This document shows positions 2,475 through 21,976 of a DNA stretch of 21,976 bases, one piece after another (the first letter of the stretch is position 1; each line of letters begins with the position of its first letter). The stretch is taken from positions 1 to 21,976 of the IMG/VR virus record IMGVR_UViG_3300044995_000405; one strand, 5' to 3'. The notes under the pieces are model-generated. The model did no database searches, had not been told where the DNA came from, and was given only the letters and a program-made list of their open reading frames with translations. The DNA comes from a virus. A program made the translations under genes and the position numbers.

Positions 2475-3666
2475 GTCAAGTCGCCAGCGTGAGCCGCAAG
2501 TGATCTCGGTCGCGTTCGGTGGCAATCGCTTTCTCGCACCGATCTTCGCGGTCAATCGCCTCGACTTGATCGCGCAGCACCCGCTCGTGATCGCTTGCCT
2601 CGACGCGATCGGCGCGCTTGCTGGTGCAGCTCGCCCGATGATGCGACTGCGGGGTGTGCCGCAGGATCAGCACCCGCTGCTTGCGCTTCTCTGGCGGCCC
2701 ATGCCGCAGATGGACTGGGCGCAGTGGGTGCGGGTGCTGGTGGCGCAGTGGTGGCTCACGGGCCGCATCGCATGCGAGCGTGGCCGCGATCAGGCGGGCA
2801 TCCTGCGCCAGCTCATCCCGCTTCCCGCGGGACGTATCGCAGAGCGATATGATCAGACAACCGGGGACTTCGCGGGCATCACGATCACGCGCGTCGACGG
2901 ACGCGAAGTAGTGCTCGCCGCGGAAGACGTGCTCTGGGCAATCAACCGCAGGCCGGATGATCCGTCGCGTCCTTGGTCGCGTGCAGATGCGCTGGAGACA
3001 GTGATCCGCATGGACACTTCACTCATGCAGTACATCGCCGACGTCACCGCGCAGGGAATGATCCGCGGGGCGCTTGTGACGAAAGAGGAGACCACGCCCG
3101 AGAAGCGCGAGAGCATTCGCGAGCGGTGGGATCTCGCCTTCGGTGCCGGCGCTATGAGCAAGGCGACCACTCCCATCATCGACGGCACACGCGCGGAATA
3201 CGTGCGAATCGGTGTTGCGCCCAGCGAGGTTGATCCGGGCGCGCTACTCGCGCACGTAGAGTCTCGCATCTGCGGCGTGCTCGGCGTGCCGCCGATTGTC
3301 GTGTCGGCGAAAATCGGTCTCGATCGCTCGACGTACGCGAACTACCGCGAGGCGCGGCTCAGGATGTGGTCCGACACCGTGGTGCCGTGGCTCACCCAGC
3401 TCGCGCAGGTGATCGAGGCGCAGCTCGCGCCGGAGTTCAACCTCCGCGCGGAAGATGTAGAGATCACATACGACTTTGACGCAGTGCCGGGTCTCGACGA
3501 GTCTCGCGAATCGCAATGGCAGCGCGCGGTCCAGGGCTGGCGTGAACAACTGTTAACCCGCAACGAGGCGCGTGCTCTCCTGGGCTACGCGCGCGATGAA
3601 CAAGGGGAGGTGTATCGTGGCTCGATCAACGACATCACTGAGCCTGCTGCTATTACTAGCGAGTAG
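2425..3666 (+). CDS. Portal protein (HK97 family)
   Basis: This 413-residue protein forms the dodecameric ring at one capsid vertex through which DNA is packaged and the tail attaches. The N-terminus MGLLDRWRE, the early segment HPLVIACLDAIGALAG, the central DVLWAIN-type strand and the C-terminal region with GVLGVPPIVV, STYANYREA and LLTRNEARALLG are typical of the HK97-type portal family. ATG 2425 was chosen over the upstream GTG at 2407 because its N-terminus matches the family. Neither has a good Shine-Dalgarno, and translation is likely coupled to the overlapping Cys-rich gene. The C-terminal 17 codons overlap the next gene. Confidence 0.93.
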   Translation: MGLLDRWREVRAQRRRESSRQREPQVISVAFGGNRFLAPIFAVNRLDLIAQHPLVIACLDAIGALAGAARPMMRLRGVPQDQHPLLALLWRPMPQMDWAQWVRVLVAQWWLTGRIACERGRDQAGILRQLIPLPAGRIAERYDQTTGDFAGITITRVDGREVVLAAEDVLWAINRRPDDPSRPWSRADALETVIRMDTSLMQYIADVTAQGMIRGALVTKEETTPEKRESIRERWDLAFGAGAMSKATTPIIDGTRAEYVRIGVAPSEVDPGALLAHVESRICGVLGVPPIVVSAKIGLDRSTYANYREARLRMWSDTVVPWLTQLAQVIEAQLAPEFNLRAEDVEITYDFDAVPGLDESRESQWQRAVQGWREQLLTRNEARALLGYARDEQGEVYRGSINDITEPAAITSE

Positions 3667-3997
3667 CGCTGCGCTTGCGCGGCCGTTCGACGCGGAGATC
3701 GATCACGTCTACGACGTGCGCGAGTCGTACGCGGTCGTCTACGACGGGCGCACGATCACATCGGCGCAGGCGAGCTGCTCGCTTGTGCGTGAGCGCACGC
3801 AGGACTCTGCACCGTCGGCGATGATCGTCGCAGGCCCGCAAATCACCGCACCGCAGGTCGTGGGCATTACGATCGAGCCCGGGCAGCAGCGCTTGGGCAA
3901 CGTGTACTGGTGCCGCGTGCGCGGCGTCGACTCCGCGGGCAACACACCCACGGCTGAGATTCTCCTGCGCGTCGTGCGCCCGGAGCCGCGACGATGA
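3617..3997 (+). CDS. Exported small beta-rich protein within the head module
   Basis: The GTG start has GGGGAGG 6 nt upstream and lies inside the portal gene (50-bp overlap). The first 21 residues form a textbook Sec signal peptide: Arg3, a hydrophobic run LSLLLLLASSAA, and an ALA cleavage site before RPFD. The mature part (about 105 residues) is rich in beta-strand and has two cysteines, one before SLVRER and one in the YWCRVRG strand. Its shape (ITSA.C..., then GNVYWCRVRGVDSAGN....ILLRVV) resembles the small Ig-like adaptor proteins that phages encode in the head and tail region. A signal peptide on such a protein is unexpected. It could be a virion adaptor that has gained export, or a periplasmic protein acting on the host. 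Function not assigned. Confidence 0.7.
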   Translation: MARSTTSLSLLLLLASSAALARPFDAEIDHVYDVRESYAVVYDGRTITSAQASCSLVRERTQDSAPSAMIVAGPQITAPQVVGITIEPGQQRLGNVYWCRVRGVDSAGNTPTAEILLRVVRPEPRR

Positions 3998-10889: not shown

Positions 10890-11296
10890 CCCGTCGCATC
10901 GCGACGTTCCTCGAACTCTCCTCTCGCCACACAATCCCGCGCACATGTGATGAGTGCGAGCGCTGGCGCCAAGGTGGCGCTTGGCGCGAGTATGATCCCT
11001 GCGCGGAGCGCTGCATGCGCGAGCGGTGGGACGAGACAGACTTCGCGCTCGCCGCGCTGGCTTTGCGTACATGTATCGGGAAGCGATACCCGCGCGAAGG
11101 TGGGGGCACGATGGATGTGTGGCGCGTCTCTCCGTCGCGGCTCGCCCTCGAGCTTCGCGTCGCCACACCCGATGTTTGCGTGCTCCGCACGCGCTGGACT
11201 GATGGCGAGATCGTCGAGCTCGTGCAGATGATCGCGGAGCAGCGCATGCTGGGGCTACCGGATCTCAAGCATCTCGCGGAGGATTTCGATGCCTGA
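10464..11296 (+). CDS. Tail assembly chaperone G-T fusion by -1 frameshift
   Basis: This is the join of 10464-10880 with 10880-11296 in the -1 frame, giving about 277 residues. The T extension starts QRLTRRIATFLELSSRHTI and runs 138 codons, ending in the tape measure start. In lambda the G-T product is made at a few percent of G and recruits tail tube subunits to the chaperone-coated tape measure. The T part has no start codon with a good Shine-Dalgarno at its 5' end, which supports the frameshift route. It contains four cysteines in the spacing CxxC-x14-CxxxC plus one further Cys, a possible metal site. The gene ends overlapping the tape measure ATG by 8 bp. Confidence 0.82.
10860..10906 (+). 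promoter_or_regulatory. Programmed -1 ribosomal frameshift signal
   Basis: Three parts are visible. The slippery heptamer A_AAA_AAC is at 10874-10880 in the correct zero-frame phase. An SD-like GAGGAG lies at 10860-10865, 8 nt upstream. A hairpin lies downstream: CGTCGC (10892-10897), loop ATC, GCGACG (10901-10906), starting 11 nt after the heptamer. The zero frame stops at 10887-10889, and the -1 frame is open for 138 codons. The layout matches frameshift cassettes such as dnaX and lambda G-T. Confidence 0.85.
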
Positions 11297-14200
11297 TTTG
11301 TCGGACATCAGGCAGCGATTCGTCGTCGATAACAGCGGTGCTGTGCGCGCGCTCGACGAGACAGCGCAGCGTCTGGAGAGCGTCGGCCAAAGCGCAGATC
11401 GGGCAAGCGGCGGCTTCTCGCGGCTCGAGCGCGCTACCATCGTCGCCGCGCAGGCGCTGACACTCGCAACATCTGCGTGGCGCGCGATCAGTAATGCGAT
11501 CTCCGCGACGATCGGCGCGGCCGCAGAGCAAGAGCGGCAGGACATGCGTCTTGCCGCGACACTGCGTGCGCTTGGGCAATACTCGCGCGACTACTTCGAT
11601 GAGCTCAGCGCGCTCGCGAATAACATCCAGCGCACCACAGTGCTCACCGACGACCAAGCGCTCGCCCTCCAGCGCGTGCTCATCATGTTCGGGGCGCAAC
11701 GGCGCGATGTGCCGCTTCTCACGCGTGTGGTGCTCGACCTCGCATCGGCATACGATACGACCGCGGAGTCGATGGCGGAGATCATCGGTGCTGCACTGCA
11801 AGGACGCGTGCAGCTTGCCGCGCGAACTCTGCGTCTCGCAGTGGAGGAAGGCGCAAGCGCGCAGCAAGTGTGGGCCGCGATCATCGAGCGCTGGCGGCGC
11901 GTGGCAGGGCTTGCGGAGGCGGATGCGCGCACGTTTGCCGGATCGGTCACACAACTGCGCAACGCCGTCGGCGAAGTCGTTGAGCGCTTTGGCGATGTCT
12001 TCGTGCGCTCGGAAGCGCTGCGCCAAGTAATGCAGTCGATGACCGGGCGACTCCTCGAGTTCGCGGAGCGCGTAACGGAGGTCGTACAGAAAAATCGCGT
12101 TGCGATAGATCGCGCTTTCGCGTCGCTCGGTCGCGATGCGATCGCATCGCTCGATGCGCTGCTCGCTGATCTGCCTGCGACCTTCGACCGCATCGCCAGC
12201 GCGGCAGTGAATGCAGCGCAGCAGATCGCATCCGCGTGGAGTGCGCTTCGCTCGATCATCGACGATGTGCGTACGCTGCTCGATGCGATCAAGGGCGCAG
12301 CCGTCGGCGCGGCCGCCGTGAGCCTGGCGCCATTCCTCGGCGTTAGCGTTGGTACTGCAGCCGTTATCGGCGCCGCGGCAAACGTTGCGCGCGGAAAAAT
12401 CGCGCGCGCGCTTGGCGACGCAGAGACCGCGGCAGAGCAAGGACAGGTAGTGAGCGCTCTTAGGCCGATCACGTCAGCCGACCTCGAGCGCCAGCGCCTC
12501 GCGCAAGACTTCGCGCGGCCAAAGCCAGAGCAAGACCAGACTGCGCGAGCGATCGAAGATGCAGCGCGACTCGCCGAGATACGCATCCCAGAGCTCAAGA
12601 AGATCAAGGACGAGCAGCGCGAAGCGGACCGGGTGATCACGGGACTTCTCGAAGGGGAGCGACTGCGCATCGAGGCACTGCAGGTAGTCGCCCGCGCGAA
12701 GATCGAGCGCGCGAAGATGGTCCTGGACCAAGCGCGCCAGGTCGGCGATCCCGAAGAGGAGGCGCGCGCACGCGAGCAAGTTGAGCGCGCAATCGAAAGC
12801 GTTGTCGCAGCCGAGCGCGCGGCGCTGCAGGCGGAGCGCGACCGTGCGGCGGAGCTTTACACGATCGGCCGTCTGATACCGGGTGTTTTTGACGCCGATC
12901 AGCTCGACGCGTTTCTCGCGCGCATGGAGCTCATGGACACCAAGCTCGCGCTGCTCCCACAGCGCACGGAGGAGCTTCGCCGCTCGCTGCTCGAGGTGCG
13001 CGCGGCTGCCTTCGACGTGTTCGACGCCCTCTCGCAAAACGTCGCGCGCGCAGCGCAGCAGGCCATTGCAGGCGGTGCGCGAGCAGACGTTGGCGATGTG
13101 ATCCGCGGCACGATCACGCTCACGCTGAGCGACATCGTAGGTGAATCGCTGCGCGGAGTGTTTGATCAGCTCAAGCGCGCACCGAGTGCGATCTTGCGCC
13201 TCGGCGGATCGCTTGCGGCGGGCATCACATCTGGGCTCCTCGGCTTCGGCCTCCAGGGGGCGCTTGCGGGACGCGATCCGCTTTTGCTCGCGGCTGCGAG
13301 CGCATTGCTCGGTGGCGGCGCGATACTCGGAGGGACAGCGGCGACGGTCACCGGGGCAAGCGCGCTTGCGTCGGCCCTTGGCATCTCCACGTCGACACTC
13401 GGCGCGGCCGCTGGTGGCCTCGGTATTATCGCGCTTGCAGCGCGGCCCTTCTTGCTCGGCCGCGGCGAAGGGACACTGCGGTTGACTGGTGAGCCGACGA
13501 GCACGGCACTCGGAACGCTCGCTGGCGGCGCATCTGGTGCGGGACTCGGACTCCTCGCTGGCGGGCCGATCGGCGCGATTGTAGGCGGTGCGATCGGTGC
13601 GATTTTCGGCGGCGTGATGGGAGCATTCGGGCTCGGGCGGCGCACGCAGGAAGATATCGTGCTGCGAGGGATCGAGCAGATCATGCAGCGCGCCGGTCTT
13701 CCGCGGCGTGTGGTCTTCGCCACCGAGGCAGGCGAGATTCGCGAAGGTGTGCGGCTTGCGGACACCGTGATCGGGCGCGATCTCGATCGGCTTCTCGGCA
13801 TGCGAGACCGCGGCAACCTCGGCGCAGTTCTCGCCGCGATCGAGCGCCGCACGCCGCAAGAGCGCGCACAAGTGCGAGAGGCTGCGCGCCCCGCGGAGAT
13901 CATCGGTCGCGCGCTCGGGCTTGCCGACCCGCAGGCGCTGGCGAATACGATCGCGAATCTCGCGCTCGCACTCGGCCGCGGATCCAATGAGGCAGTCGAG
14001 TGGCTGAAGCGCGTCAAAGACGCTGCTGGCGTCGATTTCGTTGGAGCATTTCGCGCGGTGCATGATGCGTTCGAAAGCGGCAAGATCGGCGCCGACGATC
14101 TTCGCGGCGAGCTTGACCTTTTGACGACGCTGTTCCGCGACGAGCTCGGCCCGGGCATCGACGTCGCAGCGATTGCGATGGCGCGCCTCGACGAGGCCAC

Positions 14201-15023
14201 GCGCTCGCTCGATCTGGAGGGAACTATCCGCGAAGTGAACGCGCTTTCGGCGGCAGCGAAAAGCGCGCAAACGTCGATCGCAAGCGCTGTCGCTCAGCTT
14301 GTCAAGTCCGCTGCTGAGGCGCGCACTGCTGATCAAGCGCGGAGCGCGCTCGCGCAGTTCTTCGCGGCGATCGGCGATCAGCTTGTCGAGGTCGCGACGG
14401 CGAAGTTGCTCATTCCGCTGAGCTCACAGATCGACGCGGTTGTCGAAGCGGCGATGCAAGGGCGCGACGTAGCGCCGCTGCTCTCCGACATCTTCGGCTC
14501 GATCGCAGACGCGCTGCCCGGGCTTCGCGGCATCGTCGATCTCTTCCGCGGGCCACAGCTCGCTCAGGCATTTCGCTCGCGGGCAGATGAGATTCGCTCG
14601 ATCATCGAGCAGATCGAGGCACGGCAAGATCGGCTGCGCATCCCAGAGCTGCGCGGGGACCTCTCTCGCGCGCTCGCTCAGCTTATGGGCGCTGATGCTG
14701 ATACGATCGAGCAGCGAAGCGATGATGTGGTGCGTATCGCGCAGCGACTCCTCGCCGTCGCGCAAGCATTTGCGCCAGGGAGTGTGATGCGGCTCCAGTT
14801 GGAGGCCGATGCGCGCCGCGCGCTCGAGCTCGCGGAGCAGCGTTTGCGTGATACGGCCGACGCCGAGGAACGGCGCATGGAGGCTTTGGTGCGCAACACC
14901 AGCGCGATCGAGCGGCTCACCGATGCGATCGAGCGCGCGCAGCAACCAACCACGGCGCTTGCTTCGGTGAGCGATCAGCAACCGCAGCGCGTGGGACGTA
15001 TGATGACAGGGCGGCGCGTATGA
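11289..15023 (+). CDS. Tape measure protein
   Basis: GGAGG (11278-11282) lies 6 nt before ATG. At 1244 residues this is the second longest protein in the window and follows the G/G-T chaperones, as tape measures do. It has an N-terminal helical part with a hydrophobic stretch near residues 50-78, a second near 337-369, and a charged coiled coil at about 421-524. A long Gly/Ala hydrophobic zone follows at about 634-784 with repeated GGxIGAIxGG-type helices, then C-terminal coiled coils. It sets tail length and probably helps DNA pass the host membrane. Using the common rule of about 1.5 angstrom per residue, the tail would be roughly 185 nm. No lysozyme or peptidase motif was recognised. Confidence 0.92.
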   Translation: MPDLSDIRQRFVVDNSGAVRALDETAQRLESVGQSADRASGGFSRLERATIVAAQALTLATSAWRAISNAISATIGAAAEQERQDMRLAATLRALGQYSRDYFDELSALANNIQRTTVLTDDQALALQRVLIMFGAQRRDVPLLTRVVLDLASAYDTTAESMAEIIGAALQGRVQLAARTLRLAVEEGASAQQVWAAIIERWRRVAGLAEADARTFAGSVTQLRNAVGEVVERFGDVFVRSEALRQVMQSMTGRLLEFAERVTEVVQKNRVAIDRAFASLGRDAIASLDALLADLPATFDRIASAAVNAAQQIASAWSALRSIIDDVRTLLDAIKGAAVGAAAVSLAPFLGVSVGTAAVIGAAANVARGKIARALGDAETAAEQGQVVSALRPITSADLERQRLAQDFARPKPEQDQTARAIEDAARLAEIRIPELKKIKDEQREADRVITGLLEGERLRIEALQVVARAKIERAKMVLDQARQVGDPEEEARAREQVERAIESVVAAERAALQAERDRAAELYTIGRLIPGVFDADQLDAFLARMELMDTKLALLPQRTEELRRSLLEVRAAAFDVFDALSQNVARAAQQAIAGGARADVGDVIRGTITLTLSDIVGESLRGVFDQLKRAPSAILRLGGSLAAGITSGLLGFGLQGALAGRDPLLLAAASALLGGGAILGGTAATVTGASALASALGISTSTLGAAAGGLGIIALAARPFLLGRGEGTLRLTGEPTSTALGTLAGGASGAGLGLLAGGPIGAIVGGAIGAIFGGVMGAFGLGRRTQEDIVLRGIEQIMQRAGLPRRVVFATEAGEIREGVRLADTVIGRDLDRLLGMRDRGNLGAVLAAIERRTPQERAQVREAARPAEIIGRALGLADPQALANTIANLALALGRGSNEAVEWLKRVKDAAGVDFVGAFRAVHDAFESGKIGADDLRGELDLLTTLFRDELGPGIDVAAIAMARLDEATRSLDLEGTIREVNALSAAAKSAQTSIASAVAQLVKSAAEARTADQARSALAQFFAAIGDQLVEVATAKLLIPLSSQIDAVVEAAMQGRDVAPLLSDIFGSIADALPGLRGIVDLFRGPQLAQAFRSRADEIRSIIEQIEARQDRLRIPELRGDLSRALAQLMGADADTIEQRSDDVVRIAQRLLAVAQAFAPGSVMRLQLEADARRALELAEQRLRDTADAEERRMEALVRNTSAIERLTDAIERAQQPTTALASVSDQQPQRVGRMMTGRRV

Positions 15024-15757
15024 TCTTCGGATGGAATCTTCTCCGACCGGCCACGGCGACACTGGTTTCCGGCACATCGACCATGCCCGGCTACGATCCG
15101 ATGGACGTCTGGGATGTAGATCGACCGATGAACGGCTGGCGCGCCACCGATGCGGTCTCAGGGAGAGGCGTTGTCTACGACTTCGGGTCGAACTTGACAA
15201 TCCGCCTGATCGCCATCATCGGCGCGAACCTCGGCGTGGAAGTGGGAATTTCCACGGACAACGTCAACTACTCGATCACGAACTTGAATCCGGGCTTCGA
15301 TGCGCGAAGCCCGTTCATCGCGCGCGCGCTTGTAGATCGCGGGCAAGCTCCGTCGGCGTTCCGCTATCTGCGCCTGCGGTCGCTTGCCGGATCGCCGAGT
15401 GATGGTACGTCAAGTTTTTGGATTGGCGCAGTTGCGTGCGCGCAGGCGCGCTTGCAAACGTTCTCCGGCGAACAATTGCGCTACCGCATCGACACGCCAC
15501 GCGCCGGCACGCTGCGCCCGCGGTTCGTGGCGAACCCCGGCGTCGAGATCGAACTATTCGGCGGGCGCGTCATCGGCTCGATGCTGCAGACGATCTCCAC
15601 GCTGATTGCCGCGGCGCGCGAGCAGCCGATCATTGTCTATGACGAGACCACCACGAGCGGCGTGTACATCGTGCGCATGGTGGAGCCGCCGGTGATCACC
15701 GAGCGCGCGTCGAGTGTCGCCGAGGTGACGGCGATGCGACTACGTGAGGTGCGCTGA
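15020..15757 (+). CDS. Distal-tail-like minor tail protein
   Basis: This 245-residue protein starts in an ATGA overlap with the tape measure gene. The first 140 residues read as a galactose-binding-like (discoidin-type) beta-sandwich: NLLRPATATLVSGTS, DRPMNGWRATDA, VVYDFGSNLTIRLIAIIGANLG and FRYLRLRSLAG. The rest resembles a tail-tip beta domain (GVEIELFGGRVIGSMLQTISTLIAAAREQPIIVYDE). The position between tape measure and tail tip protein is that of distal tail proteins. The domain call is by pattern and not certain. A CTTGACA heptamer encodes the LT of SNLTI. Confidence 0.65.
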   Translation: MIFGWNLLRPATATLVSGTSTMPGYDPMDVWDVDRPMNGWRATDAVSGRGVVYDFGSNLTIRLIAIIGANLGVEVGISTDNVNYSITNLNPGFDARSPFIARALVDRGQAPSAFRYLRLRSLAGSPSDGTSSFWIGAVACAQARLQTFSGEQLRYRIDTPRAGTLRPRFVANPGVEIELFGGRVIGSMLQTISTLIAAAREQPIIVYDETTTSGVYIVRMVEPPVITERASSVAEVTAMRLREVR

Positions 15758-18700
15758 TGGCGCTTGACACGGCGACAACTTACGCTCAGTCGAGCGCGGC
15801 TTTACCGTTGCTGAGCAACGCCGGAAGCGCGTACACGGTAAGCGTATGGCTACGCCCGCATGATCCGACGCAGTCAGGCACGGTGATCGATGTCGGCGAT
15901 GGCACCACGAGCCTTTGGCGCGTGCGCTATACGCCTGACGCGATCACATTCATCACGGTTGGCGGCACGTACTCGACCGCACTCCCGCAGCCCGCGCGCG
16001 TACGAAGCGACGGCTCGTGGATAGTGATCACCGTCGGCTCGTCAGGCGCGCTTATCTGCGCCGATGGCCGCATCATCGCGCGCGATCTTAACATCTATTC
16101 GCTCGGCGCATTCGGCACGGCCTTGCTCGCGATCGGTGGGCGCGTCGGCGGCGCCGATCGATGGTACGGGCTCGTCGGCGAGGTCGCGACGTGGAAGCGC
16201 GGCTTTACCGACGCTGATGCCATCGAGCTATCGCGCGGTAGATCGGCTTTTGACTTCGGACATAATCGAGACGCATATTTCCCACTGCGCCTCACATCGC
16301 CTGAGCTTGGCGGCTGGTACGATCTCGTTGCCAGCCGCATCATCACTGGCGGCGATGCTGTGATCTCGGGGCACCCAGCCGTTGCACGCGCGCGCTCGCA
16401 TCTGCGCGCGGGCGAGCCAGTGATCTATGCGCGCGTCTCGCCACAGGATGGTGACGGGCACATGGCGGTGACGCGCGATATCGATCTCGCGACGTACGCC
16501 GGGCTCGCGCCCGTATCGCATGGCGATGTGCGCATCCTCGGCGTGACCGATGTGATCACATCGCTCTCGCAGGGACACTACGGTGTCGAGATCACTGAGC
16601 CCGTCACCCTCGAGCTCGATTCGTCGTCGATCACAACGCCCCGGGATGTTCTCCTCGCGCAGCGGCCGAACTTCTGGCTCCGCGGGCATGAGATCGATGC
16701 AGATGTGATCGTCGACAGCGCATCGCGGCACTCGCTCACGCAGGGCAGCGTCTACGCCACCGTGCAGCGCGACACCATCCATGCATCCGAGGGCGAACAG
16801 CATGTGATGGACTTCTCGGGCACGACGGGCAGCTACCTCGCCGTGCTCGATGCGCCAAGATCATTTTCGCTGACGCCGCCGTGGACAGTGATCGCGTGGT
16901 GTTATCCGCGCGCGACCTCGCAGCAGTATCTCATCAATGCTGGCTCGTGGGCGCTGATTTACGGCTACGCCGGCCAGCAAGTTGAGTTTTTCGCAAGCGG
17001 CTATTCGGGCAGTGATCCACGAACCGGGTCGCAGATCTCCGCATCACTGAATCAGTGGGCGATGATCGCATACACGTACGACGGGACGAACTGGCGTTCG
17101 TACAAAAATGGCGCGCCGGTGCTCGCGACAACTCGCACGTTCGGCCTCGCAGCCGCAGCGAGCACGGCCTACATCGGCGCAGCAAGCGCGACGCTCAATC
17201 CGCTCAACGGCCGCCTTGCCGAGATCGCAATCATTCCGCGCGCGCTGTCGGGAGCGGAGATCGCGCAGCTCTGGCGCGCATCGCGTGGCGCGTTTGGTCG
17301 ACGCCCGCGCGGTTACCTGGGCGCTGGTGTGCAGCTCTACTATGCCGATTCGATGGGCGCGCATCGGCGCCTTGTCCGCGGCTATGTCACGTCAGCCTCG
17401 GAGACCGAAGAGGCGGTAGTCCTCACCGTATCCGACGCCGCGCGCGAGGAACTCTCCCAGCCGGTACCTCGTGATACGATAGATGGTCGCGTCTTTGGCG
17501 CGGCTCGCGATGCTGGTGCACCGATCCAGGTCCCCTTCGGCGAGGCCATCGTGCAGGCGTACCACATCGGGAGTGTGGAGGATGTCAACCCTGGCGAGGA
17601 TTACGCTGTCGGCGTGTGGCGCGGCTCGAACGACGCGCCGCACATTGCCGGCGTGTGGTGGGACTCTGCACCGGATCAGCCGGGCTTCGAGCGCGCTCAA
17701 GCGTGGATCGACGTACCGGTGACCGCGATCAACGTCAGCACGAAAACTGTGACCGCTTCGGGGAATTTGACCACATTCGCGACCGCGGGCAAGATTGTGC
17801 GTCTGGCGCGTGTCAGCGCTCAGGGCTGGCAGATCGCGCGCATCATCTCTGCCACATACGATGCCGGCACCGATACGACCGCGATCGTGCTCACGCAGAT
17901 CGTGTCCTGGGGCACGATTCCATCGGGCTGCATCGCAGAGATCGATCCCGTGCCAGAGAGCGGCTCGCAGCCAGTCGGCACGATCCAATCACTCGGCAAT
18001 GACGCCGCGGTGATGTGGGTCCAGCAAACCCCGCAGCCGCGCGTGGTGCTCATCTCGCCCGGGCGCAACTTCTCGAGTGGTCAGCTCGTTGGCGGCATTC
18101 GCATTCTGCGAGTCGGATCGCCGATGCAGATCGCCGCCGGCGAAGTCACAATCCGGCTCGGTGACTACCTCGCGCCGTCCGATTCCGCGCAGATCGTCAC
18201 GCTGAGGATGCCGATCGAATACCAAGGCGCGGTGCTCGCGCGCGTGATGCGCCAGTATGGCGCGCTGTGGGACGAAGCGCTCACACTCGCGCTCGATGAG
18301 ATCGCGCAGCCGCTTCGCGCGAAGAGTCAATCTCAGCAGTGGGAGATCGTGGGCGGTGCGCTCGGTGGGCGGCGCGCGATTGAATCCTGCCAGCGCGTGG
18401 TCGAGGATCTGCTTCGCCAGGTCTGCGGTGTGCTGCGCGACGCTGGCGACGTATATGTCGCTCACGAGGCCATGCATGAGGCGATGCTCGTCGCAGCTCC
18501 ACCGCGCGGTGAGGTGCGCATGCGCGAGATTGCCGCGGCTGATCGCATGATCCCCACACGTATCGTGGCACGATGGGGCCAGCAGTACCGCGCGCGTGCG
18601 CAACGCGACTGGCAGATCCTCGTGCAGACCGACGATTACCCGGGCGTGGCGGCCATCGGCTCCGGGCAGATCGTTGAGACGATCGTGTTGCCATATGCCG

Positions 18701-19965
18701 GCCACCAGAAAGCAGTGGATGCCGCGCTGGAGCGCCATCTTGCGCATCGGCAGGCGGATGCCGAGCGGCTTCGACTCGTCGTCGATCTCGGCGAGGCGCT
18801 CACCGTGCGGCCGCAGATGATCATCCGACGCGATGCGTCACGCTACCTCGGACCGCCGCTTGTCGCACGTCAAGTGCGGTATGATCTCCGGCGGCTCGAG
18901 GCGGAGATCGAGGCAGTGCCGTACTCGTCGACCATGCAGGGCGCACCGCGCGGCACGTACGCGAGCGTCTTCCCGCAGCTCCAGATCCCCGAAGAGATCG
19001 GCGCGCAGCGCGCGACCGCGACCGCGAATCTCGCGCGAAACTCCAACTTCGCGATGCCGTATTCATCCGCCCTGCCCGGCTGGTATCACCCGAGCGTCTC
19101 CGTGGCCGTGCGCCGCGATTACGGCGCGGTCGGCGGATACGTGGCAACACTCACGCCGTCGAGCGCGCCAGCCACCTTCGGCCCGGGCATTAGCGATGCG
19201 GAGGGCGGCGGCGCTCCCGGCTTTCTGCCGGTGACGGCGCGCGCGGAGTGGTCGCTGCTTCTCGCGATGTACGCGGATGACGTGCGGTACATCGAGCCGC
19301 GCGTCGTGTGGTACGACTCGGCAGGAAACATTCTCGGCTCCGCGACGGGTGATCTGCTCGAATGGCGCACGAGCGGCGAGGTCAACGGGCTCGGGTATCC
19401 GCGCTGGTACACAATCGCGCGCACGCGCAACCGCCAAGCGGCTTTCGCCTTCCTGTACCTCCGCTTCACGAAGGCGAACGTGAGCGTGCAGGTGGATGCG
19501 ATCTACATCGGGCGCGTTGATGGGCGGCGACCTTCGATACCGCCGTGGTCGCCGTCACGTCGTGATGCGATAGGTATCGGATCAGAGAGTGCTGCAGCGA
19601 CGGGTGTGGCGCTTCGTACGATCACGACCGAGATTACCATCGCCGGCGGTGCAACGAGCGGTCAAGCAGCGGCATTCATCCCCGCTGGCTGCGCGCTCTT
19701 CGACATCGGTGCGATGGTGTTGCAGGCCGGCGGCGCGGGCCCAACGTGGTCGCTCGGAACAGCAGCAAATACGACGCGGTTCGCCAGCGGCAAAGCGCTC
19801 ACCGTCGGTGTCAAGTCAAGTGCAATCGCTGAACTGGGCACGCCGTTCGGCGTCGGCGAGCGCTACCAAGTCGCAACTACTGTGCAGATCACGCTGTCTG
19901 CCAGCGTGGCGGGGCAGAGCAAGTGGAGGGTCTATGCTACCATCGGAACCGGTGCCGTACAGTGA
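15757..19965 (+). CDS. Large tail tip protein with two LamG-like domains
   Basis: The ATG lies in a TGATG overlap with the previous stop. This 1402-residue protein appears to combine tail hub and receptor-binding parts. About residues 24-165 and 347-515 look like LamG/concanavalin-type lectin folds (YTVSVWLRPHD ... WYGLVGEVATWKRGFTDADAIEL; WTVIAWCYPRA ... LNGRLAEIAIIPRALSGAEIAQL). The middle (about 520-1060) resembles siphoviral tail-tip proteins (GYVTSASETEEAVVLTVSDAAREEL; VPFGEAIVQAYHIG). About 1093-1255 looks like a carbohydrate-binding module (NLARNSNFAM ... VQVDAIYIGRVDG). The last 110 residues are a beta domain common at phage fibre ends (AAAFIPAGCALFDIGAMVLQAGG). It probably recognises sugars on the host surface. 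Domain borders are approximate. Confidence 0.8.
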   Translation: MALDTATTYAQSSAALPLLSNAGSAYTVSVWLRPHDPTQSGTVIDVGDGTTSLWRVRYTPDAITFITVGGTYSTALPQPARVRSDGSWIVITVGSSGALICADGRIIARDLNIYSLGAFGTALLAIGGRVGGADRWYGLVGEVATWKRGFTDADAIELSRGRSAFDFGHNRDAYFPLRLTSPELGGWYDLVASRIITGGDAVISGHPAVARARSHLRAGEPVIYARVSPQDGDGHMAVTRDIDLATYAGLAPVSHGDVRILGVTDVITSLSQGHYGVEITEPVTLELDSSSITTPRDVLLAQRPNFWLRGHEIDADVIVDSASRHSLTQGSVYATVQRDTIHASEGEQHVMDFSGTTGSYLAVLDAPRSFSLTPPWTVIAWCYPRATSQQYLINAGSWALIYGYAGQQVEFFASGYSGSDPRTGSQISASLNQWAMIAYTYDGTNWRSYKNGAPVLATTRTFGLAAAASTAYIGAASATLNPLNGRLAEIAIIPRALSGAEIAQLWRASRGAFGRRPRGYLGAGVQLYYADSMGAHRRLVRGYVTSASETEEAVVLTVSDAAREELSQPVPRDTIDGRVFGAARDAGAPIQVPFGEAIVQAYHIGSVEDVNPGEDYAVGVWRGSNDAPHIAGVWWDSAPDQPGFERAQAWIDVPVTAINVSTKTVTASGNLTTFATAGKIVRLARVSAQGWQIARIISATYDAGTDTTAIVLTQIVSWGTIPSGCIAEIDPVPESGSQPVGTIQSLGNDAAVMWVQQTPQPRVVLISPGRNFSSGQLVGGIRILRVGSPMQIAAGEVTIRLGDYLAPSDSAQIVTLRMPIEYQGAVLARVMRQYGALWDEALTLALDEIAQPLRAKSQSQQWEIVGGALGGRRAIESCQRVVEDLLRQVCGVLRDAGDVYVAHEAMHEAMLVAAPPRGEVRMREIAAADRMIPTRIVARWGQQYRARAQRDWQILVQTDDYPGVAAIGSGQIVETIVLPYAGHQKAVDAALERHLAHRQADAERLRLVVDLGEALTVRPQMIIRRDASRYLGPPLVARQVRYDLRRLEAEIEAVPYSSTMQGAPRGTYASVFPQLQIPEEIGAQRATATANLARNSNFAMPYSSALPGWYHPSVSVAVRRDYGAVGGYVATLTPSSAPATFGPGISDAEGGGAPGFLPVTARAEWSLLLAMYADDVRYIEPRVVWYDSAGNILGSATGDLLEWRTSGEVNGLGYPRWYTIARTRNRQAAFAFLYLRFTKANVSVQVDAIYIGRVDGRRPSIPPWSPSRRDAIGIGSESAAATGVALRTITTEITIAGGATSGQAAAFIPAGCALFDIGAMVLQAGGAGPTWSLGTAANTTRFASGKALTVGVKSSAIAELGTPFGVGERYQVATTVQITLSASVAGQSKWRVYATIGTGAVQ

Positions 19966-20173
19966 ACACGCGTTAACGGATCGCATCGAACTCGAGCGCC
20001 GCATCGCCGCGTTGGAGCGGGATGTGATTCGGATGTGCCATCAAGTCGAAGAGCTCACGCATCGCTTGGACACACTCATGAATCGCATGCTCATGCTCTT
20101 CGTGGCAGCCTTGACATCTCTTGCGGTCAACGTGGTCTCAGCGATCGTGATCACGCAGATCGTCGGCAAGTGA
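19934..20173 (+). CDS. XhlA-like lysis-associated membrane protein
   Basis: GGAGGG lies just before ATG 19934; the gene overlaps the end of the tip protein by 32 bp. The 79-residue product has a heptad-patterned helix (about residues 16-47, ELERRIAALERDVIRMCHQV...HRLDTL) followed by one membrane segment (about 52-76, MLFVAALTSLAVNVVSAIVITQI). This coiled-coil-then-membrane layout is that of haemolysin XhlA-type proteins, which cooperate with a holin and endolysin in lysis. The endolysin gene follows 7 nt later, which supports a lysis role. It could itself be the holin. Confidence 0.72.
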   Translation: MLPSEPVPYSEHALTDRIELERRIAALERDVIRMCHQVEELTHRLDTLMNRMLMLFVAALTSLAVNVVSAIVITQIVGK

Positions 20174-20180
20174 GGCAGCG

Positions 20181-20837
20181 ATGATCATCGGAAAGCGCGG
20201 CGATCAAGCTGAGTGGATTCGCGGGCTGCAGCGCGCGCTGAATCGCGTCGGCGCGCGGTTGCGAACGGATGGCATCTTAGGCCCGCGCACGCTCGCGGCA
20301 GCAAGCGAGATCGTGGGGCGCGAGCTCGCATCGCTCGATGAGGAGTCGCTCGCGAAAATACTCAGCGGCGCGAATCTCCTGCGCCATGAGCTCCGCTCGC
20401 TTCTTGTGGCTGTGGCGCGCGCACATATCGGAGTGCGAGAGGAGGGACGCAATCGCGGCCGCATGATCGACGCGTACATCCGCGCCACAGGCCTCGATCC
20501 GGAGGGTGAGCATCCATGGTGCGCCGCATTCTGCGTCTATTGTCTCCAGCAAGTGCGTCGCATCACAGGCTGCCCGCGGACGTGGATTCGATCGGCGCGG
20601 GTAATCGACCACGTCCAGTTTGCCCGGTCGTGCAAGCAGCTCACGTCGAGCGATGTGGAGGGCTTGCTCGTTGCGCGGATGAAGCCGAGTCACATGGGCA
20701 TCTACATCGGTGGTGGTCGCACCGTCGAAGGCAACACGGACCCCAGCGGCTCGCGCGAAGGTGACGGAGTGTATCTGCGCTCGCGCGGAATCGAATGGTG
20801 GACCGTGCGATGGGACCCTTTTCACGAGGAGGTTTAG
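20181..20837 (+). CDS. Endolysin: peptidoglycan-binding plus CHAP-like domain
   Basis: The 218-residue protein degrades peptidoglycan at the end of infection. Residues about 7-46 form a PG_binding_1 repeat (WIRGLQRALNRVG, LRTDGILGPRTLAA). Residues about 75-210 form a CHAP/NlpC-P60-like catalytic domain with HPWCAAFCVYC (nucleophile Cys114), HMGIYIGGG (His171) and VEGN (Glu183/Asn185). The order of binding domain first, catalytic domain second is typical for phages of Gram-negative hosts. There is no signal peptide or membrane anchor, so release depends on the holin. GAGG precedes the ATG by 6 nt. Confidence 0.88.
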   Translation: MIIGKRGDQAEWIRGLQRALNRVGARLRTDGILGPRTLAAASEIVGRELASLDEESLAKILSGANLLRHELRSLLVAVARAHIGVREEGRNRGRMIDAYIRATGLDPEGEHPWCAAFCVYCLQQVRRITGCPRTWIRSARVIDHVQFARSCKQLTSSDVEGLLVARMKPSHMGIYIGGGRTVEGNTDPSGSREGDGVYLRSRGIEWWTVRWDPFHEEV

Positions 20838-20838
20838 C

Positions 20839-21819
20839 ATGAGGCACTCTATCGCAGTGGTTTTGCTCGCGTGCGCCTCGGCGGCGCATGCGAAGTGGGA
20901 CGCTCTCTTCGGGCCGCAGGCATCAGTCGATCTCCCGGGCGCCGTGGCGGACCTCGGATGTGCTGGCTCGTCGGCTCTTGTCGCGATTTCCGGCGATGCG
21001 CTCCGACCGTCGCGCATTCTCTCCGTCTCACCTGGCGGTGCGATCGCCGAGATCTATCGCGATGCGAGTGTTCGCGCGACGGGCGTTGGTGCTGGCCATG
21101 CGTGGCTTGGCGCACCGAAGCACGGGCTCTTCGCGCTCTCGGCACTCGGCGGCGATGCAATCGCCACAAGCATGGGCTGCGATGCGCGCTCGATCGCGCA
21201 AGCCGAAGATGGCGCGCTCATCGTCGGCTGCATGAACAACGCCGGCATCGCGCGCGAGCTGGTATTCACCGTTCGCGCAGGAGACAAACGAACGCTCATT
21301 CGCACCGGCGCCTGCTCTCCTAACGCACCGACCGGATATTACGTCAGCGCCGTCGCAACGCGCGGAGATCGCATCTACTGGTATGACACTCTCTGCCAGA
21401 TGACGCGCGGCATGCGTGACGAATCCGACGTGGCCGTGGTCGCGGGAACTGGACGTGCTGGCGCTCCAGGCGATTACGTCGGCCGCGATGCGGCAACCGT
21501 GGCGATGCAGTGCTTCGATCTCGTGGTCGATGGCGATGATCTCCTCTGTGCCGCGCGCGATCTCGGCGATCTCGTGCGCATCTCGCTCCCGACGCGGCGG
21601 ATTGCCGCGCAAGAGCCGCTCCCGGTCTCGCAGCCTCGGTTTCCGCGCTACGCGCGCTGCGCTGGCGTGGAGTACTTCGCCGATGGCACGGCGCTCTTTG
21701 TGCGCGGAGTGCCACCAGCGGCCACGCCGACGCCGAGTGCGATCGCGACCGCATCGGTGACGCCAGCGACCCGGGCATGTGATTTAGCGCGCGCGCTCGT
21801 GGAGGAAGTGTGTCGCTAA
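20839..21819 (+). CDS. Exported NHL-like beta-propeller protein
   Basis: ATG 20839 has GAGGAGG 6 nt upstream and follows the endolysin stop by one base. Residues 1-18 are a clear signal peptide (MRHSIAVVLLACASAAHA, then KW). The mature 308 residues repeat propeller-like blades (ALVAISGD..., HAWLGAPKHGLFAL..., DGALIVGCMNN..., DRIYWYDTLCQ). One segment, about 200-248, fits the NHL pattern: VAGTGRAGAPGDYVGRDAATVAMQCFDLVVDGDDLLCAARDLGD in form. Ten cysteines in the mature part suggest disulphides in the periplasm or outside the cell. A Pro/Thr/Ala linker (about 292-312) precedes a short tail with two cysteines. A role in superinfection exclusion, lysis of the outer envelope or host surface change is possible but not shown. 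Confidence 0.75.
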   Translation: MRHSIAVVLLACASAAHAKWDALFGPQASVDLPGAVADLGCAGSSALVAISGDALRPSRILSVSPGGAIAEIYRDASVRATGVGAGHAWLGAPKHGLFALSALGGDAIATSMGCDARSIAQAEDGALIVGCMNNAGIARELVFTVRAGDKRTLIRTGACSPNAPTGYYVSAVATRGDRIYWYDTLCQMTRGMRDESDVAVVAGTGRAGAPGDYVGRDAATVAMQCFDLVVDGDDLLCAARDLGDLVRISLPTRRIAAQEPLPVSQPRFPRYARCAGVEYFADGTALFVRGVPPAATPTPSAIATASVTPATRACDLARALVEEVCR

Positions 21820-21976
21820 TCATCGCGCTGCTCGCGCTCCTCATCGCCGCGCCGGCTCATGCGGTGATCAGCGGCTATGCCTTTTTTTGCAACGCCACAT
21901 CCTCGACGAACAACAACATCATCTCATGCACATCCACGGTCACAATCCCCGCAGGCTCTCGCATCGTGCTCGCCTC
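21810..21976 (+). CDS. Exported protein of unknown function, cut by window end
   Basis: GTG 21810 has GGAGG 4 nt upstream and overlaps the previous gene by 10 bp. The frame is open to the last base, giving 55 visible codons. The product begins with a signal peptide of about 18 residues (SLIIALLALLIAAPAHA, then VISGY). The start of the mature part is Thr/Ser/Asn-rich with two cysteines (FFCNATSS... and ISCTSTVTIPAG), suggesting a disulphide-bonded beta protein. No family is recognised. It appears co-translated with the exported propeller protein, so the two may act together outside the cytoplasm. Confidence 0.6.
   Translation, partial: MSLIIALLALLIAAPAHAVISGYAFFCNATSSTNNNIISCTSTVTIPAGSRIVLA

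Follow-up and report, generated by a model that had tools for sequence, protein, structure and literature searches.

The tail parts of a virus are, as a rule, produced and assembled within the cell. Some phages also export proteins to the host envelope, and those of the T5 Llp type, which are lipoproteins, mask receptors or exclude superinfecting phages. Single exported phage surface proteins are already known, lambda Lom among them (PMC12309495). The locus analysed here carries two adjacent genes for apparently exported proteins, directly behind the endolysin, and these seem to be the beginning of something larger. No account was found of a late, mobile cassette in which several genes, shared by unrelated phages, encode secreted propellers, lectins, fibre-like proteins and stalks.

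The record and its late region

The window—the whole stretch of DNA that was analysed, 21,976 bases—is the entire public virus record IMGVR_UViG_3300044995_000405, which is complete at that length and classed as linear. Its source is an uncultured siphovirus, of which the record holds only a fragment. The late region comprises terminase, portal, a Mu-F-like protein, an HK97-type capsid, tape measure and tail proteins, followed by a small coiled-coil/transmembrane (TM) protein, the endolysin and the exported genes. Its distal part is organized as follows:

11289–15023, plus strand: tape measure protein (38% identity to that of the relatives)
15757–19965, plus strand: large tail protein with a Laminin_G_3 domain, 33% identity to the relatives' 1264-aa protein
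19934–20173, plus strand: small protein with a coiled coil and a C-terminal TM segment (topology from sequence), weakly XhlA-like and perhaps a lysis accessory (phrog_1193 hemolysin, E 0.19)
20181–20837, plus strand: endolysin, peptidoglycan-binding plus NlpC/P60/CHAP-type (PHROG endolysin families, E 2e-9; PG_binding_3)
20826–20832, plus strand: Shine-Dalgarno GAGGAGG, within the end of the endolysin gene, with a 6-nt spacer to ATG 20839

A join between phage and host DNA at the exported genes had been named as something that would refute the original reading. None was found: synteny with other phages extends through the endolysin, and a chimeric contig was rejected on that ground.

The two exported genes

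The features of the exported genes are:

20839–21819, plus strand: exported protein of 326 aa, with signal peptide, beta-rich core predicted to be propeller-like, Pro/Thr linker and two-Cys tail (from the sequence, and from the place and architecture of relatives)
20839–20892, plus strand: its signal peptide, MRHSIAVVLLACASAAHA, with cleavage before KW (heuristic, from sequence; a mature start xW is common to the relatives, as QW or AW)
About 21703–21774, plus strand: Pro/Thr/Ala/Ser linker (from sequence; the linker of relative L064 is disordered in its model)
21775–21816, plus strand: two-Cys tail, ACDLARALVEEVCR (by alignment; the equivalent Cys-flanked helix is residues 339–352 of the L064 model)
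21810–21976, plus strand: second exported gene, GTG start, the N-terminus of a 239-aa cassette family by homology

The first gene begins at ATG 20839, one nucleotide past the endolysin stop. Its mature chain contains 10 Cys, and its C-terminus reads CDLARALVEEVC. The second begins at GTG 21810, overlapping the stop of the first, with GGAGG at 21801–21805; its signal peptide, VSLIIALLALLIAAPAHA, is 18 aa long, and the gene is truncated at 21976, where the public record ends, so the window shows the cassette's first gene and a fragment of its second. The mature N-terminus of this fragment is homologous to the 239-aa family (E 5e-4 within one record; 1–6/5000 shuffles). Signal peptides, here and below, were called with a home-made heuristic that combines simple hydrophobicity with an A-x-A rule, rather than with SignalP. 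In coordinates, order and features, then, the original prediction of signal-peptide genes with Shine-Dalgarno sequences right after the endolysin is correct.

The 326-aa protein has no match in Pfam (checked up to E 10), NCBIfam or PDB sequences, and single-sequence searches of viral contigs, genome contigs, phages and plasmids returned no relatives of it. Neither exported gene in the window matches a tail-fibre family. A lipoprotein reading of the 326-aa protein was considered and rejected: the Cys lies too early, and relative L003 has Gly there. As judged from the sequence, the protein possesses neither a lipoprotein signal of usual length nor a C-terminal TM segment, and the earlier view that the two genes are not a recognised spanin pair holds, there being no usual lipobox and no homology.

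Relatives keep a cassette at the same place

Four relatives of the window were found, three via the endolysin (L002, L003 and L004) and one via the tail protein (L058). All are collinear with it, at 38% identity in the tape measure, 33% in the tail protein and 46% in the endolysin; their terminases, where present, are 57–58% identical to the window's. In each of the four a signal-peptide cassette directly follows the endolysin. In its first ORF, of 442 aa, an Hjc-like nuclease domain (Pfam E 7e-5) precedes a signal-peptide-like segment, internal to the ORF, and a propeller, which is followed by a Pro/Thr linker and a Cys tail. Where the contigs are longer, the cassette goes on to encode a Cys protein of 163 aa, a fibre-like protein of 1012 aa, a protein of 239 aa, and one of Pro/Thr repeats whose N-terminus is hydrophobic. 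Among the endolysin relatives examined, the more distant ones carry no cassette.

The first ORF of these relatives is itself unusual. At L002:10651-11979, L003:10579-11907, L004:2745-4073 and L058:14731-16059, the Hjc-like nuclease is fused in frame to the exported propeller with no intervening stop, and with no obvious ATG, GTG or TTG start that would leave the signal peptide at full length; purifying selection acts on both halves. One of the contigs, IMGVR_UViG_3300036768_000756 (68 kb; L056 and L058), consists of two tandem, related 34-kb phage copies about 86% identical, which may be a real dimer or an assembly artefact.

By place, signal peptide, linker and Cys tail, the 326-aa protein fits the cassette propeller family (L064/L002 type). 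Its core, when compared with the relatives' propellers, gives an hhalign probability of 2%, and HMM and Smith–Waterman (SW) scores within those of shuffles; the hhalign P-value of 0.02 comes from the N-terminus, partly from the signal peptide. The 326-aa protein is linked to the propeller family by place, domain order, mature start xW and Cys tail, and no sequence homology of its core to the relatives' propellers was detected.

The fold of the propeller is likewise read from a relative. The L064 model (pLDDT 66, from five sequences) contains some 20 strands and a C-terminal helix flanked by cysteines, and its linker is disordered. Propellers were the top matches to it in Foldseek and VIA-align, and NHL structures head the VIA list with Z-scores of 14–15, the best being the extracellular domain of PknD (1rwi; Z 15.0, 238 residues, rmsd 4.5, 10% identity). 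An NHL-like fold is therefore predicted for the relative's propeller. The AF2 model of the 326-aa protein itself (pLDDT 36) is unusable, and the protein matches an NHL consensus weakly (33/3000 shuffles). Of its original description, the Cys-richness, the Pro/Thr linker and the two-Cys tail stand; the NHL-like propeller is unconfirmed on the 326-aa protein itself, with no match in Pfam, NCBIfam or PDB sequences, and has indirect support from the syntenic relatives and this weak consensus match.

Purifying selection and transfer between phages

A phage of 91.5 kb, which has no terminase matching that of the window, carries the L064 propeller. Its tape measure is 3907 aa long, and by eye we recognised genes resembling RecA and a clamp, from which we class the phage as a lytic type. 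After its tail and lysis genes come ten consecutive genes, nine of them positive for a signal peptide compared with nine of 89 elsewhere in the phage (Fisher 2.6e-7, with heuristic calls). The L064 propeller is 33% identical to that of L002 (E 6e-49), and is without the nuclease part. The same phage encodes, at L064:1552-5376, an exported protein of 1274 aa that has two Laminin_G_3 domains and, in a long region of Pro/Thr repeats, the recurring segment GGGQEVQFT.

L064 and L002 have in common one substantial stretch of DNA, a 4.5-kb block that runs from the 163-aa gene as far as the beginning of the Pro/Thr gene, with 81.5% nucleotide identity. GC3 in the 1012-aa gene of L002 is 0.53, against about 0.76–0.79 in the genes for tape measure, tail protein and endolysin. 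The GC of the block resembles that of the donor kind, and the block seems to have been acquired: the sequences point to one recent transfer, from an L064-like donor to the L002 lineage. The L002 propeller lies outside the transferred block and has native GC. All carriers of the 1012-aa gene that we found come from one metagenome, 3300036768, and a further scan yielded none beyond those already known.

Across relatives, dN/dS is about 0.04–0.15 for the nuclease part, the propeller, the linker and tail, and the 163-, 1012- and 239-aa genes; the endolysin and tail genes fall in the same range. All tested cassette genes are under purifying selection, and so are working genes. Because the relatives keep the exported genes at the same place, and because the tested genes have such low ratios, the arrangement is more than chance. 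In some environmental bacteria, exported proteins that are rich in Cys and have a Pro/Thr linker are common, and it could be argued that ordinary host proteins were carried here by chance, or that the contig is chimeric, but this is very improbable given a place kept in several phages, purifying selection, and no cellular relative among the genome contigs and 47 genomes of one phylum that were searched.

Signal peptides on virion-like genes

Signal peptides are not confined to the propellers. The 1012-aa protein, which has many cysteines and fibre-type motifs (recognised by eye), contains an Fn3-like part with matches among the baseplate and tail genes of other phages. A 34-kb phage contig whose terminase is 41% identical carries, directly after its large tail protein gene, a gene that begins with a signal-peptide-like segment; the 406-aa product matches tail-fibre families in PHROG (E 5e-7 to 7e-5). 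The window has a case of its own in the head module:

3617–3997, plus strand: Ig-like protein with two core Cys, lying between the portal and the next head gene; GTG start; begins VARSTTSLSLLLLLASSAALA

Orthologues in four relatives (L080, L081, L091 and L094) keep both the signal peptide and the two core cysteines. With signal peptides on the 1012-aa, 406-aa and Ig-like genes alike, export of virion-type beta proteins seems to be a recurring habit of the lineage. Homology to a known virion protein had been named originally as evidence that would count against a new system; the cassette neighbours in relatives are indeed tail-fibre-like, and the 326-aa protein itself gave no such match.

In that 34-kb contig, JAGQHR010000001.1 (L087/L090; 34165 b), signal-peptide genes occur in both the capsid and the tail regions. 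It is binned into a Candidatus Eisenbacteria MAG, but as a phage contig of its own, which makes the binning weak evidence of host. A search of 47 genomes of that phylum, run without a positive control, gave no match to the propeller family.

What the cassette might do

Our preferred reading, which we hold to be about evenly poised between right and wrong, is that the two window genes start a late-expressed cassette of Sec-exported, disulfide-stabilised proteins of adhesin or fibre type, located at the tail/lysis end of the late operon. The fibre-like resemblance concerns the neighbouring cassette members in relatives, not the two window genes. The cassette proteins would be produced along with those for lysis, leave the cytoplasm through Sec, and fold and form disulfides in the periplasm. 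Once outside the cytoplasm they might act as surface-binding modules—propeller head, Pro/Thr stalk and Cys foot—with fibre- and lectin-like partners. Their most likely role would be to attach, late in infection, to structures on the host surface, where they would mask the receptors of the dying cell and of its debris and so spare the progeny. The main alternative within the same picture is that they attach to virions at lysis. We rank masking or exclusion at the host surface somewhat higher, because the literature we searched describes no tailed phage that fits its fibres outside the cytoplasm. The original prediction of exported proteins in a late position is supported, and the two genes turn out to be part of a larger set in relatives.

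If the proteins are instead parts of the virion, they would mature outside the cytoplasm: exported fibre and propeller proteins would fold in the periplasm with disulfides, and attach to particles at lysis. The signal peptides on genes that resemble virion accessories (the tail-fibre match after the tail gene, the 1012-aa Fn3 protein and the Ig-like gene that adjoins the portal) speak for this, as does the sharing of the cassette by unrelated phages of one metagenome, which is often seen with receptor-binding genes. We nonetheless consider it unlikely, for it has no precedent in the open-access literature searched, and the window lineage already possesses a large tail protein, without a signal peptide and with a LamG domain, that can serve receptor binding. 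The general form of the idea, that some tailed phages of uncultured bacteria fit Sec-exported, periplasm-folded fibres and Ig-like decorations onto their particles only at lysis, is rather unlikely too; open-access papers yielded no description of signal peptides on the tail fibres of tailed phages, nor of an assembly route in which such fibres fold in the periplasm.

Disruption of the outer envelope, with the cassette standing in place of spanins, would suit genes directly 3′ of the endolysin in a phage with no recognised spanin pair. It is improbable. The cassette offers no pair of lipoprotein and TM protein, the distant endolysin relatives examined do without it, and ten genes, encoding proteins as large as 1274 aa with features of lectins, propellers and fibres, far exceed the needs of lysis.

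We give similarly little credence to lysogenic-conversion cargo, or a moron, expressed from a prophage and altering the host surface, which the original prediction had entertained. Lambda Lom is a known example of an exported phage surface protein (PMC12309495), and the cassette is mobile between phages. Separated from the endolysin by a 1-nt gap, and from each other by an overlap, the genes leave no intergenic space for a promoter or terminator of their own, however; no integrase was seen in family scans, themselves incomplete, of the small relative; and the 91.5-kb carrier, of lytic type, has its cassette after the lysis genes.

Comparison with known systems

Each known system resembles the cassette in part. 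To NHL beta-propellers such as PknD (1rwi) the likeness is one of predicted fold, in the relative's propeller, which has no NHL family match and adds a signal peptide, a Pro/Thr linker and a Cys tail. To phage tail fibres and receptor-binding proteins, it lies in the Fn3-like part and motifs of the 1012-aa protein, and in the PHROG tail-fibre match of the 406-aa protein. Both of these proteins carry Sec signal peptides, however, and the 1012-aa protein has many cysteines, for which fibres assembled in the cytoplasm have no need. Were such fibre-like members to reach virions, it would mean that the periplasm can serve tailed phages as a folding compartment.

If the cassette proteins stay on the cell, instead, they would form an elaborate receptor-masking or exclusion system. 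Like the proteins of the T5 Llp type they are phage proteins exported to the envelope, by prediction, but they are several and large, without the usual lipobox and without relation in sequence. Lambda Lom, too, is the product of a tail-region phage gene with a signal peptide, and resides in the host envelope (PMC12309495). Lom, however, is a single beta-barrel protein of the outer membrane, expressed in lysogeny, whereas the cassette is coupled to the endolysin and consists of several genes, which encode Cys-rich propeller, fibre-like and stalk proteins.
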